The translations under genes were made by a program, and so were the position numbers. Source: Microbacterium sp. oral taxon 186 str. F0373 (GTDB lineage: Bacteria; Actinomycetota; Actinomycetes; Actinomycetales; Microbacteriaceae). From it: DNA of 64,000 bases. The first letter of the stretch is position 1. Every line of letters begins with the position of its first letter. Below are positions 7,099 through 38,249 of the stretch, in pieces. The notes beneath the pieces were generated by a model. That model saw only the letters and a program-made list of their open reading frames with translations. It searched no databases and was not told the DNA's origin. The DNA is taken from assembly GCF_000411455.1 (NCBI RefSeq), contig NZ_KE150457.1, positions 1,514,023 through 1,578,022 on the forward strand, read 5' to 3'.

Positions 7099-7377
7099 GA
7101 CCGCATCCTACTCCGCCGACCTGTCGTCATGAACGGACTCTCAGGTGAAGAGTCGGAGTGCGCCGAGCGGCGGACCCGACCATGCGTTCTCGTGGTCCCG
7201 AGGTGCGTACGGCCCTGCCGTACGGGTGGGTCTGCCGAGGGCCGTCAGGCTCTCTGCCCACCGCACGGCGGCGGCGACCCCGTCGATCACGGGTTCCCTC
7301 AGCTGGGAAACCGGCGCAGCCGAGCACGGGTGAGTGGTTTCTCTGCACGCCGCTCGTTCCTCTGCGAGGATGAGGGC

Positions 7378-8211
7378 ATGGCTTCCCCCCTCCCTTCGAT
7401 CGCGATCCTCGGTGCCGGCTCGATGGGAGGCGCGATCTTGCAGGGCCTCGTCCGCTCGGGTGATGCCCCCGCGATCACCGTGACCAACCGCACCGCCGTG
7501 CGCGCTGACGCCTTGGTGGGACTCGACGGCGTCACGAGCCTTTCGCTCGAGGCCGACGGCGACGCGAACACGGCTGCCGCCGCAGCCGCCGACATCGTGC
7601 TCATCGGTGTGAAGCCGGTGATGGTGCCCGATCTGCTCCGCGAGATCGCGCCCGTGCTGCGTCCGGGGACGATCATCGTGAGCCTCGCCGCGGGTGTCAC
7701 GATCGCGACATTCGCGTCCATCGTGGGTGAAGAGGTCTCGGTGATCCGCTCCATGCCGAACACCCCCGCGGTGGTCGGCAAGGCGGTGACCGGCCTGTCG
7801 GCGGGCCCCACGGCATCCGCGGACGAGCTGGCGCTGGTGCGCCGGCTGTTCGAGACGTGCGGGGCGGTCATCGAGGTGCCCGAGTCGCAGATCGACGCCC
7901 TGTCGACGATCTCGGGGTCGGGTCCGGCCTACTTCTTCCTGCTGGTCGAGGAGCTCACCGAGGCCGCGCGCGGCAAGGGTTTCTCCGACGCCGACGCGCG
8001 CCTGATGGCCGAGCAGACCTTCATCGGCGCCGCGGCGCTGCTGGATGCCACGGGGGAGGACCCCGCCGAGCTGCGGCGGCGCGTCACCAGTCCCAAGGGC
8101 ACGACCGAGCGTGCGATCGCGGTGCTGCAGGGCGCCCGCCTGGACGGCGTGTTCGCCGAAGCGACCGACGCCGCCCTCGCCCGCGCCAAGGAGATGGCCG
8201 TCGGCGCCTGA
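7378..8211 (+). CDS. proC: Pyrroline-5-carboxylate reductase
   Basis: A 277-residue NAD(P)H-dependent reductase for the last step of proline synthesis. The Rossmann motif GAGSMG is at residues 12-17. The C-terminal dimerisation domain carries SGSGPAYFFLLVEEL and RRRVTSPKGTTERAI, both signature stretches of the family. The ATG at 7378 is chosen because it begins directly at the beta-strand of the Rossmann fold; in-frame sequence further upstream covers unrelated DNA. It ends convergently with the AbiEi/DUF559-like gene, with a repeat element between them. Confidence 0.95.
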   Translation: MASPLPSIAILGAGSMGGAILQGLVRSGDAPAITVTNRTAVRADALVGLDGVTSLSLEADGDANTAAAAAADIVLIGVKPVMVPDLLREIAPVLRPGTIIVSLAAGVTIATFASIVGEEVSVIRSMPNTPAVVGKAVTGLSAGPTASADELALVRRLFETCGAVIEVPESQIDALSTISGSGPAYFFLLVEELTEAARGKGFSDADARLMAEQTFIGAAALLDATGEDPAELRRRVTSPKGTTERAIAVLQGARLDGVFAEATDAALARAKEMAVGA

Positions 8212-8269: not shown

Positions 8270-8338
8270 GCGAGAAACCACCTTCGGCACGAGAAACCAC
8301 CACTGCAGGTGCGTGTCGTCGCCGTTGTGGTTTCTCAC
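8270..8338. repeat. 69-bp four-arm palindromic element, copy 1
   Basis: Arms GCGAGAAACC (8270-8279) and CGAGAAACC (8290-8298) in forward sense, a degraded third arm at 8310-8318, and reverse arm GGTTTCTCAC (8329-8338). Arm spacing (10, 11, 10 nt) is identical to copies 2 and 3. The minus-strand neighbour takes its stop codon TGA from the last arm. It lies between convergent proC and that gene, so it may also end transcription. Confidence 0.8.
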
Positions 8339-9351
8339 TGCAGTTGGTGAGGGAGGGTGCGGGACGTCTGGCGCAGGCTCGCCAGTCCGGCGCGGTCGCG
8401 CGGGCGGACGAGCCGGACGGCCGCGCGCTGCAGGGCGGTCGCCAACGGCTCGACCCGCACCGCGTCCGCCATCTCCCAGCGTGCGACCGGATGCCCCGCG
8501 CGGCGCAGACGGTCCTCGCGGCGCTTCTCGTCGCGGAAGCGCCTCGCGGCGTCGGCGGGTGCTTCGCCGTCGTCGATGCCGTACTTGCCCCAGCCGTCGC
8601 TCTCGCCCACCGTGCGGCTCGACGGGAAGAGGAAGTCCGTGCGGTCCGTGACGCCCTCGTAGCGGAGCTCGGCCTGCAGCACCGGGTCTTCGAAGCCGCA
8701 CCAGCGGATGACGGCGCGGCTCACACTCTCGCCGGGCGACTCGGCGCGCGCGTCCGCGTGCGCCCAGGCCCACGCCAGCCGCGCGACGCCCCGGCGGGAG
8801 GCCTGCGACGCGGCGCGCTCCCGGAGGTCGTCGACGACGAGAGCGCCGCCCTGTCGGGGCGAGATCGCGGCATCCACGACGGCGAGCGCCTGCGCGGGCG
8901 GGAGCACGCGGGCGAGATCGATGACGGCATCCGTCGGCGAGGTGCACAGGATGCCGTCGACGCTCACGACCTCCCGCGCGTCCGTGCTGGTGTGCACGCA
9001 CACGTCGCCGAACCGTCGCGACGCCGTGCGGTCCGGATCGAACACGTGGATGTCGCGCGCCTCGCCGAACAGCGGCAGGCCGAGCAGCACCGCGGCGGAC
9101 TCCAGGCACAACACGGCATCCGGGTGGACGAGCGCGAAGGCGTGCACCCGCAGCGCATACCGCTGCCACGGCGCCAGCCGCGCCGCCGCGGCGGCATCCA
9201 CGTACACGCCGCGGCGCACCCGCACGAAGCCGGGACCGGCCACCGCCAGCCGCAGCACGCGGGCCTCGGCGGAGGTGACGAGCGGAAGCGGTGACCGGGT
9301 GGTGGCACGGTCCGTCGACAGGTGCGGCATCCGCAGATCATGCCCCGGCAC
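8335..9351 (-). CDS. AbiEi-like winged-helix / DUF559-type nuclease-fold protein
   Basis: A 338-residue protein of a type common and often multi-copy in Microbacteriaceae. The N-terminal part (VRRGVYVDAAAAARLAPWQRY) resembles the AbiEi antitoxin winged helix; AVLCLESAAVLLGLPL follows. The C-terminal third has a Vsr/DUF559-like pattern (ESVSRAVIRWCGFEDPVLQAEL, then RTDFLFP, E-S-D and GKY), consistent with a PD-(D/E)xK nuclease fold. Activity is not established. A start at the internal ATG of MPHLSTDR (seven residues later) is equally possible. The gene is bracketed by two copies of the same 69-bp element, and its stop codon lies in one of them. Confidence 0.7.
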   Translation of the reverse strand: MPGHDLRMPHLSTDRATTRSPLPLVTSAEARVLRLAVAGPGFVRVRRGVYVDAAAAARLAPWQRYALRVHAFALVHPDAVLCLESAAVLLGLPLFGEARDIHVFDPDRTASRRFGDVCVHTSTDAREVVSVDGILCTSPTDAVIDLARVLPPAQALAVVDAAISPRQGGALVVDDLRERAASQASRRGVARLAWAWAHADARAESPGESVSRAVIRWCGFEDPVLQAELRYEGVTDRTDFLFPSSRTVGESDGWGKYGIDDGEAPADAARRFRDEKRREDRLRRAGHPVARWEMADAVRVEPLATALQRAAVRLVRPRDRAGLASLRQTSRTLPHQLQ

Positions 9352-9431: not shown

Positions 9432-9500
9432 GCGAGAAACCACCGGCGAGCCGAGAAACCGCGCGTGGCAGGGTTTCTCGCGCCGCAGATGGTTTCTCGC
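9432..9500. repeat. 69-bp four-arm palindromic element, copy 2
   Basis: The cleanest copy. Forward arms GCGAGAAACC (9432-9441) and CGAGAAACC (9452-9460) are followed by reverse arms GGTTTCTCG (9472-9480) and GGTTTCTCGC (9491-9500), with spacers of 10, 11 and 10 nt. It lies upstream of the AbiEi/DUF559-like gene and downstream of trkA. Confidence 0.85.
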
Positions 9501-34517: not shown

Positions 34518-37500
34518 GTGACCGCCTCGATCGCCGCCGCCCGCTTCGCGCTCGACATCGACGGTGTGCCCCGCACCGCCCGCGCACAGGCGCTGCTCGA
34601 CACCCTGTCGGAGCGGGTCGTGATCGCCGACGGCGCGATGGGAACGATGCTGCAGCGCCACGATCTGCAGATCGACACGGACTTTCACGGCCTCGAGGGC
34701 TGCAACGAGATCCTCAACGTCACACGTCCCGATGTGGTCGGTGCGATCCACGACGCCTACTTCGCCGTCGGCGTGGATGCCGTGGAGACGAACACGTTCG
34801 GGGCTAACTGGTCGAACCTGTCGGACTACGGCATCGACGACCGCATCACGGAGCTCGCCGCCGCGGGCGCGCGGATCGCGCGCGAGCGCGCCGAGGCGGC
34901 CGAGGCGGTCGACGGACGGATGCGCTGGGTGCTCGGGTCGATGGGGCCCGGGACGAAGCTGCCGAGCCTCGGCCACACCACCTACGCCCATCTGAAGGAG
35001 ACGTTCGCGCTTCAGGCGGAAGGCCTCATCGACGGGGGAGCAGACGCCTTCCTCGTCGAGACGAGCCAGGACCTGCTGCAGACCAAGGCGGCGATCAACG
35101 GCTGCAAGCAGGCGATCGTGGCGCGGGGCATCCGCCTGCCGATCTTCGTCGAGGTGACGGTGGAGACGACGGGCGCGATGCTCATGGGCTCCGAGATCGG
35201 GGCGGCGCTCACGGCGCTGGAGCCGCTGGGCGTCGACGCCATCGGCCTCAACTGCGCGACGGGACCGGCCGAGATGAGCGAGCACCTGCGCCACCTCTCG
35301 AAGCACTCATCGGTGACGATCGCGTGCATGCCCAATGCCGGGCTGCCGGTGCTGACCGCCGACGGTGCGCACTATCCCTTGACACCGGCGGAGCTCGCGA
35401 CCGCGCACGAGCAGTTCGTCCGCGAGTTCGGGATCGGGCTCATCGGCGGATGCTGCGGCACCACGCCCGAGCACCTCGCCGCGGTCGTGGAGCGGGTGGG
35501 CCGGCTCTCCGTGGCGACCCGCACCCCTGACCGCGAGACACCGCCGGGGCACCGAGACACCGAGAGTGCACCGGTGTCTCGGCGCGAGAACGGTGTCTCG
35601 CTGGCGTCAGCGATCGAGACCGAGCCGGGCGTCGCGTCGCTGTATCAGCACGTGCCGTTCCGGCAGGATGCCAGCCACCTCGCGATCGGGGAGCGGACCA
35701 ACGCGAACGGGTCGAAGGCGTTCCGCGAAGCGATGCTCGAGGGCCGGTGGGAGGACTGCGTCGAGATCGCCCGTGGGCAGATCCGCGTCGGCGCGCATCT
35801 GCTGGACGTGTGTGTCGACTACGTCGGGCGCGACGGCGTCGCGGACATCCGCGAGGTGGTGTCGCGGTTCGCCTCGGCATCCACTCTTCCGCTCGTGATC
35901 GACTCGACCGAGCCCGCCGTCATCCAGGCGGGGCTGGAACTGATCGGCGGGCGGCCCGTCGTGAACTCCGTCAACTACGAGGACGGCGACGGCCCGGCAT
36001 CCCGCTTCGGGCGCATCATGCCGCTCGTCAAGGAGCACGGCACCGCGGTGATCGCGCTGACGATCGACGAACAGGGGCAGGCGCGCACCGCCGAAGACAA
36101 GCTGCGCATCGCCTCGCGCCTGGTCGACGAGCTCGTCGGTGCGTGGGGCATGCGGGTCGAGGACATCATCGTCGACTGCCTGACCTTTCCGATCGCCACG
36201 GGCCAGGAGGAGACCCGGCGGGACGGGATCGAGACCATCGAGGCGATCCGCGGCCTCGTGGCGAAGTACCCGGGCATCAACACGACGCTCGGCGTCTCGA
36301 ACGTCTCGTTCGGGCTCAACCCCGCCGCCCGCTCGGTGCTCAACTCCGTGTTCCTGCACGAGGCGACGCAGGCGGGGCTGACCAGTGGCATCATCGACGC
36401 CGCGAAGATCGTGCCGTTGGCCTCCCTCCCCGACGAGCAGCGGAGGGTCGCGCTCGACCTCGTCTGGGACCGGCGCGAATGGGATGCCGACGGCACCCTC
36501 ACCTACGACCCGCTGGCAAGGATGCTCGACCTGTTCGCCGGGGTCGACACGGCGGCCCTCCGCGACCAGCGCGCCGCAGAGCTCGCGGCGCTCCCGGTCG
36601 GCGAGCGACTCGAGCGCCGGATCATCGACGGGGAGCTCAAGGGTCTCGAGGCCGACCTCGACCTGGCGCGCGCCGGCGATGCGGATGCCGCGCCGCTCAG
36701 CCCGCTGCAGATCATCAACGACCACCTGCTGGAGGGCATGAAGGTCGTCGGCGAACGGTTCGGATCGGGCCAGATGCAGCTGCCGTTCGTGCTGCAGTCC
36801 GCCGAAGTGATGAAGACCGCGGTCGCCCTGCTCGAGCCGCACATGGAGAAGACCGACGAGGCAGGCAAGGGCACGATCGTGCTGGCGACCGTCCGCGGCG
36901 ACGTACACGACATCGGCAAGAACCTCGTCGACATCATCCTGACGAACAACGGCTACACGGTGATCAACCTGGGCATCAAGCAGCCGATCGCCGACATCAT
37001 CGCCGCCGCCGAGGAACACGACGCCGATGTGATCGGGCTCTCGGGGCTGCTCGTCAAGTCGACCGTCGTGATGAAGGAGAACCTCGAGGAGCTCATGGCC
37101 CGAGGCCTCGGCACGAGGTGGCCGGTCATCCTCGGCGGCGCGGCTCTCACCCGCGCATACGTCGAACAGGATCTCGCGGAGCTCTTCGAGGGCGAGGTCC
37201 GCTACGCGAAGGACGCGTTCGAGGGGCTCGCCCTCATGGAGCCGCTCGTGCGGATCGCGCGCGGCGAAGCACCGGATGCCGTCGGCCTGCCGCCGCTGAA
37301 GAAGCGCATCCATGCGGCGGGGTCGCGTCTGACCCTCACCGAGCCCGAGGCGATGCCGGCGCGGTCGGACGTGGCATCCGACAATCCCGTGCCCGCCCCG
37401 CCGTTCTGGGGGACGCGCATCGTCCGCGGCATCGCGCTCGCCGACTACGCCGCGTTCCTCGACGAGCGGGCGACCTTCATGGGGCAGTGGGGGCTGAAGC

Positions 37501-38249
37501 CCGGCCGCGGCGAGGGCGGACGGTCGTATGAGCAGCTCGTCGAGACCGAGGGCCGGCCGCGCCTGCGGTACTGGCTCGACCGCATCCTCGCCGAGCGCAT
37601 GCTCGACGCCTCGGTCGCCTACGGGTACTTCCCGGTCGTGTCGGAGGGCGATGACATCGTCGTGCTGCACCACGGCGACGACCCGACCGGCCTGCTCGGG
37701 CGGGCGGGACTGCTGGCGCCAGACGGCGGGTCGGGCGGCGCGCTCGGAGCCGACCGGCTGCGCTTCCACTTCCCGCGCCAGCGCCGCGACCGGCACCTGA
37801 ACCTCGCCGACTTCGTACGCTCACGCGCGTCGGGACAGATCGACGTCCTGCCGGTGCAGCTCGTGACCGCCGGAGCGGCGATCGACGCCGTGACCGCGAA
37901 GATGTTCGCGGAGGACCGCTACCGCGACTACTACGAGCTGAACGGGCTGGTCATGCAGCTGACCGAGGCGCTCGCCGAGTTCTGGCACGCCCGCATCCGC
38001 GCCGAGCTCGGTTTCGCCGCGGAAGACCCGGCCGACACCGCGGGATTGTTCACGCTCGACTACCGCGGCGCGCGGTTCTCGCTCGGCTACCCGGCCTGTC
38101 CCGACATGGAGGACCGCCGCAAGGTCGTCGAGCTGCTGCGTCCGGAGCGGATGGGCGTCGAGCTCAGCGAAGAGCTGCAGCTGCACCCCGAGCAGTCCAC
38201 CGACGCGTTCGTGTTCCACCACCCCGAGGCGACCTACTTCTCGGTCTGA
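34518..38249 (+). CDS. metH: Cobalamin-dependent methionine synthase
   Basis: A 1243-residue cytosolic enzyme transferring methyl from methyltetrahydrofolate to homocysteine through cobalamin. Order: homocysteine domain (residues about 30-335; Zn ligands in NCATG and GGCCGTTPEH), pterin domain (about 365-650; IGERTNANGSKAF), cap and B12 domain (about 690-900; DVHDIGKN holds the cobalt-ligating His), and the AdoMet reactivation domain (about 930-1243). Residues 340-362, in the linker between the first two domains, are encoded by a 69-bp repeat element. GTG start, leaderless promoter. Confidence 0.95.
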   Translation: MTASIAAARFALDIDGVPRTARAQALLDTLSERVVIADGAMGTMLQRHDLQIDTDFHGLEGCNEILNVTRPDVVGAIHDAYFAVGVDAVETNTFGANWSNLSDYGIDDRITELAAAGARIARERAEAAEAVDGRMRWVLGSMGPGTKLPSLGHTTYAHLKETFALQAEGLIDGGADAFLVETSQDLLQTKAAINGCKQAIVARGIRLPIFVEVTVETTGAMLMGSEIGAALTALEPLGVDAIGLNCATGPAEMSEHLRHLSKHSSVTIACMPNAGLPVLTADGAHYPLTPAELATAHEQFVREFGIGLIGGCCGTTPEHLAAVVERVGRLSVATRTPDRETPPGHRDTESAPVSRRENGVSLASAIETEPGVASLYQHVPFRQDASHLAIGERTNANGSKAFREAMLEGRWEDCVEIARGQIRVGAHLLDVCVDYVGRDGVADIREVVSRFASASTLPLVIDSTEPAVIQAGLELIGGRPVVNSVNYEDGDGPASRFGRIMPLVKEHGTAVIALTIDEQGQARTAEDKLRIASRLVDELVGAWGMRVEDIIVDCLTFPIATGQEETRRDGIETIEAIRGLVAKYPGINTTLGVSNVSFGLNPAARSVLNSVFLHEATQAGLTSGIIDAAKIVPLASLPDEQRRVALDLVWDRREWDADGTLTYDPLARMLDLFAGVDTAALRDQRAAELAALPVGERLERRIIDGELKGLEADLDLARAGDADAAPLSPLQIINDHLLEGMKVVGERFGSGQMQLPFVLQSAEVMKTAVALLEPHMEKTDEAGKGTIVLATVRGDVHDIGKNLVDIILTNNGYTVINLGIKQPIADIIAAAEEHDADVIGLSGLLVKSTVVMKENLEELMARGLGTRWPVILGGAALTRAYVEQDLAELFEGEVRYAKDAFEGLALMEPLVRIARGEAPDAVGLPPLKKRIHAAGSRLTLTEPEAMPARSDVASDNPVPAPPFWGTRIVRGIALADYAAFLDERATFMGQWGLKPGRGEGGRSYEQLVETEGRPRLRYWLDRILAERMLDASVAYGYFPVVSEGDDIVVLHHGDDPTGLLGRAGLLAPDGGSGGALGADRLRFHFPRQRRDRHLNLADFVRSRASGQIDVLPVQLVTAGAAIDAVTAKMFAEDRYRDYYELNGLVMQLTEALAEFWHARIRAELGFAAEDPADTAGLFTLDYRGARFSLGYPACPDMEDRRKVVELLRPERMGVELSEELQLHPEQSTDAFVFHHPEATYFSV
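35533..35601. repeat. 69-bp four-arm palindromic element, copy 3, in frame within metH
   Basis: Forward arms GCGAGACACC (35533-35542) and CGAGACACC (35553-35561), reverse arms GGTGTCTCG (35573-35581) and GGTGTCTCGC (35592-35601); spacers 10, 11 and 10 nt. Geometry and length equal copies 1 and 2, but the core is GAGACACC in all four arms. At 69 nt it adds 23 codons without breaking the metH frame. Confidence 0.85.

Follow-up and report, generated by a model that had tools for sequence, protein, structure and literature searches.

Introduction

Explanations of palindromic repeats in bacteria have centred on REPs and a single transposase class. In REP/REPIN systems with RAYT (REPtrons), short palindromes with genome-specific words lie 3' of genes, and copies of the repeat bracket the gene for the enzyme, a Y1 transposase. 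REPs are palindromes of 20-40 bp tagged with GTAG or CGTC. Some REPs sit within genes (PMC3733652). Rickettsia palindromic elements (RPEs) are palindromic repeats found in frame within conserved genes; they are ~150 bp long, and nearly half lie within ORFs (PMC10969869). AbiEi antitoxins bind inverted repeats and regulate their own expression through them (abstract of PMC7319586).

Here we describe a repeat found in a window of 64,000 nucleotides from Microbacterium sp. oral taxon 186 str. F0373. It shares with REPs the short palindromes, genome-specific words, position 3' of genes and bracketing of an enzyme gene. In contrast to REPs, it has four boxes at a 19-bp pitch over 65-69 bp, its arm words are untagged, and the bracketed gene encodes an AbiEi-like/Vsr-type protein in place of a Y1 transposase. 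Like an RPE, it occurs in frame within a conserved gene, metH. Unlike RPEs, it is coding only in metH (1/22 F0373 copies; 0/137 named copies), and the parallel with RPEs drawn in the initial annotation is therefore weak. A literature search of open-licence papers found no prior description of the repeat or of its pairing with a gene.

Results

A four-arm repeat in frame in metH

We found that metH contains the 69-bp four-arm element that had been reported there, in frame within the linker that joins the homocysteine and folate domains. The gene (34518..38249, + strand) encodes 1243 residues. The repeat (35533..35601; dyad-symmetric, no strand assigned) encodes residues 340-361, and the Pfam domains on either side are S-methyl_trans (35-327) and Pterin_bind (391-626). 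Four arms of 8 bp, arranged ++--, span 35535-35599. Arm 1 (outer, 35535..35542) and arm 2 (inner, 35554..35561) read GAGACACC on the + strand; arm 3 (inner, 35573..35580) and arm 4 (outer, 35592..35599) are inverted, on the - strand, and read GGTGTCTC on +. All three gaps measure 11 bp, which gives a pitch of 19 bp, and GC flanking each end brings the total to 69 bp.

The four-arm pattern, with up to 3 mismatches allowed, occurred three times in the window and not at all in each of 100 dinucleotide shuffles. The occurrences at 9434 and 35535 have no mismatches, and that at 8272 has 3, its third arm being decayed. The two copies outside metH flank gene 1 (8335..9351, - strand), which encodes a 338-aa AbiEi-like plus Vsr/homing-endonuclease-type protein. 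One copy (8270..8338, no strand assigned) overlaps the 3' end of gene 1 and also lies 3' of a convergent proC-like gene (7330-8211). The other (9432..9500, no strand assigned) is 82 bp upstream of gene 1 and has four intact GAGAAACC arms.

The metH copy had been described as identical to these copies in length and spacing, with a changed core in every arm. Length and spacing do agree, although the copy at 8272 has three intact arms and not four. The word GAGACACC is present in all four metH arms, but it is not peculiar to metH; it is the mark of one of two repeat subfamilies in the F0373 genome.

The metH segment is very probably an insertion

The segment had been proposed to be an in-frame insertion that some relatives would lack. 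Alignment of MetH from relatives bears this out. Between two conserved motifs, the linker has 66 residues in F0373 and in two other genomes that carry the copy (G197 and G276), versus 38-40 residues in 14 of 56 Microbacterium linkers, all 14 motif-free; nine linkers have exactly 38. The 56 linkers are a non-random sample, consisting of the 30 best metH matches, 20 picked from the same list, some for unusual length, and 2 and 4 from two other searches. By motif content, 17 hold TTTCG...CTCAACGACC, seven the four-arm repeat (assigned by hand), four a CTCGACAAGCTC-type motif, one CTCGATACAC, and 27 none. Linker length alone is no proof of insertion, because 10 of the 56 are motif-free and yet 47-70 residues long, among them that of M. 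hominis (68).

The linker of bin.43 (G046) has 60 residues, equal to 38 + 22. The bin.43 metH exceeds empty linkers by 66 bp, with flanks too diverged for a target-site duplication to be read. A tree of metH flanks from six carriers (G372 left out) requires at least three gains or losses. The repeat is in one common frame in F0373, G197 and G276 and in G046, G294, G372 and G365; this would fit one old insertion with later losses. We conclude that the metH segment is very probably an in-frame insertion, in a linker that tolerates extra residues.

The metH copy of G372 (L216:1975-2112) has a new word. Its outer arms, GAGACGGG and CCCGTCTC, are altered together, and the spacing is unchanged.

A dispersed repeat family of Microbacterium

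The 69-base palindrome is a dispersed repeat family, with some twenty copies per genome in many species of Microbacterium. Copies are 65-69 bp long and have arms of the form GA(G/T/A)A(A/C)AC(C/G), with Y at -1 (97%) and R at +1 (99%). The F0373 genome had 20 copies when up to 3 mismatches were allowed, and none of a reversed-pattern control. Among 99 Microbacterium genomes, 43 had at least one copy, with a maximum of 30 and no match to the reversed control in any genome, and among 245 genomes of the family outside the genus a single one had one weak match. A looser scan of named genomes gave at least 115 stretches. Among the 80 matches listed, 74 were from named Microbacterium, and M. testaceum StLB037 was one of the strains with copies; the other six were from Actinomycetota SZAS-4 (2), Microthrixaceae, Brevibacterium renqingii, Actinomycetales SN12 and Microbacteriaceae PS02344. 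We rejected membership in the RAYT systems: PF01797 (Y1_Tnp) was absent from all repeat-bearing genomes of the 99 sampled, with no match in F0373 and one genome positive in the genus (G041, which has 0 copies).

Gene context, called with a custom gene finder, was determined for 137 named copies. As with REPs, copies lay between convergent (57) or co-oriented, tandem (57) genes; 9 were between divergent genes, 2 overlapped a gene end, 12 were at locus edges and none was inside a gene. For comparison, 80% of random 65-mers fell inside genes. The metH copy was the only coding copy in F0373 (1/22), G197 (1/17) and G276 (1/18).

Whole 19-bp units have been gained, as G197 has five arms at a site with four in F0373 and G276. 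At another site (L257:925-1027), G197 has a six-arm array, two 19-bp units more than its four-arm orthologue in G276. A separate difference in G276 (L297:742-9963; G276:C1:1975603-1984824) consists of two similar copies around 9.2 kb of genes that by eye are of secreted or surface type; both flanks of this site are adjacent around one copy in F0373 and G197.

Copies were in excess in the origin half of G197, G276, G071, G034 and G004, with p<0.05 only for G276, G071 and G004. The origin half held 7/12 copies in G067, 4/8 in G084, 4/8 in G031 and 3/11 in G070, and 58/84 when pooled (G276 excluded; some lengths rounded). We claim no matS- or Noc-like role in chromosome position for the copies.

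Repeat copies bracket gene 1 and its homologues

We found that copies of the repeat bracket homologues of gene 1. Nine homologues were present among the 821 genes of 115 named loci, and eight of the nine directly adjoin a copy; the baseline is 220/821 genes. When the 6722 ORFs of all fetched loci were searched with a profile, 22 of them matched at E <=1e-4. Where both sides were visible, copies bracketed the gene in 14/14 loci (13 intact genes and one broken, L099), which represent at most 11 independent cases, because gene 1 of F0373, G197, G276 and M. hominis is one locus, and fewer still if other genes share a genomic place. The bracketing is REP-like, with a different enzyme. In truncated loci, a copy was on the visible side in 6/6. 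One weak homologue (L150, E 5.4e-13) had no copy nearby; copy-less homologues would be missed, because most loci were fetched for holding a copy. The upstream bracketing copy was 41-136 bp from the gene or overlapped the start of the longest ORF.

The gene was seen in four genomic settings (gene names by eye): proC-trkA in the window, M. hominis and bin.43; map-infA in SZAS-4 and M. saccharophilum; secE/nusG-rplK (L141, RURRCA19A); and a setting of its own at L162. We predicted beforehand that a homologue would lie between the two copies of other pairs spaced 1.1-1.25 kb apart. This was true of three of five pairs (G067, G004 and G036); the other two (G084 and G033 C46) enclosed other genes. 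Control loci, three with pairs at other spacing and three with single copies, had a homologue in 0/6.

In M. esteraromaticum GN8-5 (L099:2029-3167), the gene is broken into two ORFs, and copies are still present on both sides. At L323 (G084:C1:79000-83000), three GAGACAC-type copies ~1.2 kb apart lie around membrane-protein-like genes and not a nuclease gene.

The repeat word matches the protein subfamily

The word of the bracketing copies matches the subfamily of the bracketed protein. The bracketing word was of the GAGAAACC type for ten proteins, GAGACAC for five and GATAAACG for three. On the protein tree these words require 2 changes, the minimum, compared with a shuffled mean of 7.3 and a value as low in 0/200 shuffles, a statistic that near-copies help. 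The GAGACAC proteins had weak support as one clade (61/5).

Gene 1 is a candidate partner of the GAGAAACC word. A second gene, gene 2 (contig C2, about 20.94-21.98 kb; L020), is bracketed on both sides by GAGACAC copies, and the metH copy bears the gene 2 word. This is why the metH arms differ together from the copies at 8-9 kb. Recognition by a protein had been among the explanations offered for the shared change, and the tracking of arm word with the subfamily of the nuclease-like protein supports it.

Gene 1 is predicted to join an AbiEi-like half to a nuclease-like half

PADLOC AbiEi profiles matched residues 28-211 of the gene 1 protein (best E 3.6e-8) and all of the five proteins searched (the other four at E 6.8e-9 to 1.4e-12). 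An AlphaFold2 model built from 8 sequences had a mean pLDDT of 85.3 and pTM of 0.83. Modelled residues 21-200 resembled AbiEi 6y8q (Z 7.6, rmsd 5.9, 163 aligned), with a Z < 8 that may reflect a common arrangement. In the C-terminal half, modelled residues 205-314 resembled the homing endonuclease I-Bth0305I (Z 10.0, rmsd 3.1, 94 aligned) and residues 203-311 resembled Vsr (Z 8.8, rmsd 2.8, 104 aligned); other structural matches were 3hrl (Z 9.4) and TnsA (Z 6.9). D239, E250, D252 and K256 are invariant in 8/8 proteins and would fit a nuclease site.

The C-terminal half is thus predicted to have the fold of Vsr and I-Bth0305I. Unlike in those proteins, the putative nuclease half is fused to an AbiEi-like half and tied to a dispersed repeat. 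The N-terminal half is like AbiEi antitoxins by profile and predicted fold; unlike for AbiEi, no AbiEii-type toxin was recognised by eye among the neighbours, and the sites are dispersed genome-wide. Foldseek with the model gave nothing at E <=0.001 (nuclease fold probability 0.84, E 0.94). Searches with the protein gave nothing above cut-off in Pfam and NCBIfam, nothing at E <0.05 among PDB sequences, and no match in plasmids.

Arms are constrained and gaps drift

The repeat is under arm-specific constraint. In orthologous copies, which were gathered by arm pattern with a bias toward conserved arms, divergence between F0373 and G197 (15 copies) was 2.7% in arms (~3.3% with one flank-placed copy added), 9.5% in gaps and 10.8% in non-coding flanks. 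Between F0373 and G276 (13 copies) it was 3.6%, 17.9% and 17.9%, respectively. Gaps drift as non-coding DNA does, and arms evolve 3 to 5 times more slowly than gaps (arm/gap ratio, 95% range: 0.16-0.48 for G197 and 0.10-0.34 for G276). These counts leave out the metH pair (coding flanks), four F0373 sites with no orthologous two-flank site with a copy in G197 (L005, L011, L012 and L014), L003 (flank-placed; 4/32 arm differences by eye) and L264 versus G197 (extra unit). The slow evolution of the arms, together with the tracking of word with protein subfamily, gives strong support to the earlier suggestion that arm identity is essential.

The initial annotation also held that the four arms change together, and this was correct in part. 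Among 22 F0373 copies, arm position 5 was C in all arms of 9, A in all arms of 6 and mixed in 7. The 15 uniform copies exceed the shuffled mean of 2.8 (maximum 10), but the 7 mixed copies, and outer-arm and inner-arm words that differ in other species, show some arms varying independently. Among the named copies (87 distinct), arm 1 agreed with arm 4 in 70 at position 3 and in 81 at position 5; for arm 2 with arm 3 the corresponding counts were 67 and 64, and for the remaining arm pairings 47-53.

Pairing of the gaps was strong across the genus. By Watson-Crick counts within genomes, pairing inside a copy was no greater than between copies in F0373 and G197 and was greater in G276. With G.T allowed, z for columns 16-19 was >0 in 9 of ten genomes (1.3-3.9), and z for columns 9-15 was -0.7 to 1.3 in nine genomes and 2.8 in G276; the ten include F0373, G197 and G276, which have orthologous copies and two subfamilies in common. 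At columns 16-19, pairing was kept by two-sided change in only 2 of 17 changed orthologue pairs, which argues against a hairpin. One-sided changes and the lack of a G.T excess (counts given below) fit a DNA-level site better than an RNA.

A second repeat family in G049

The TTTCG motif is dispersed in G049 (26 matches in 200 kb, 0 reversed), and this second family, TTTCG...CTCAACGACC, fits the RPE parallel better than the four-arm repeat does. Within the 200 kb, its palindromes are in frame in three more genes (L314:14633-16294, L320:19164-20000 and L321:8859-9725), by eye an HsdM-like methylase, a CcdA-like membrane protein and a triosephosphate-isomerase-like protein. Dense arrays of TTTCG repeats in both orientations, many ~120 bp apart, occupy L316:1318-9480.

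Discussion

We think it probable that the repeats serve the bracketed proteins as recognition arrays and make up a REP-like system that lacks the REP transposase. The word of the metH copy is that of gene-bracketing copies, and for this reason repeat and gene look like halves of a new kind of element. The four-box DNA array would be the recognition site of the repeat-associated protein. The AbiEi-like half would bind the arms and the nuclease half would cut DNA, and the array could spread through cutting and repair-templated copying. We put forward only tentatively that the bracketed nuclease spreads the repeats. We hold with the same reserve the fuller proposal of an independent counterpart of REP-RAYT, in which the AbiEi-derived half recognises palindromes, cutting and repair spread them, and words and enzymes co-diverge, with two such systems in F0373 and one copy in MetH.

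The bracketing copies might instead be operators of the AbiEi-like gene, and the dispersed copies regulatory sites kept by the host. One bracketing copy is upstream of the gene, at the distances given above, AbiEi autoregulates through inverted repeats (abstract of PMC7319586), and the arms are constrained. Nevertheless, the second bracketing copy is at the 3' end of the gene, few dispersed copies lie at divergent promoters (9 of 137), and the nuclease half is left unexplained. We regard this explanation as unlikely.

It is also improbable that an unrelated transposase spreads the array in MITE-like fashion, with the nuclease gene as a passenger or favoured landing place. The repeat is dispersed and dyad-symmetric, shows presence/absence differences, and lies 3' of genes as REPs do, and two of the predicted copy pairs enclose other genes. 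However, a passenger would not be expected to show two-sided bracketing in 14/14 loci or a word that goes with its protein subfamily. In addition, the one Y1_Tnp-bearing genome among the 99 of the genus is copy-free, viral contigs had no match to a loose exact four-arm pattern, and BLAST of the metH copy (metH word only) found no match in plasmids and phages.

A hairpin formed in RNA at the 3' ends of transcripts, acting as terminator or stabiliser, would account for strong predicted folding (metH copy -47.2 kcal/mol, z -6.5), the position of copies soon after stop codons and copy-specific complementarity at columns 16-19, but it is very improbable in view of similar G.T and A.C counts on the transcribed strand (arms 15/11, columns 16-19 23/21; 72 oriented copies), mostly one-sided changes in orthologue pairs (43 and 66, versus 2 and 5 Watson-Crick-to-Watson-Crick) and an Rfam search with the repeat that gave no match.

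If the repeats are indeed recognition arrays of the proteins that they bracket, then systems of a repeat plus a dedicated enzyme arose more than once, and the AbiEi fold may have a role beyond toxin-antitoxin pairs. The bracketed AbiEi-like/Vsr-type gene is now named as the candidate for a test. The MetH linker, in which repeat motifs of four kinds were seen in frame, serves as a natural archive of repeats becoming protein.
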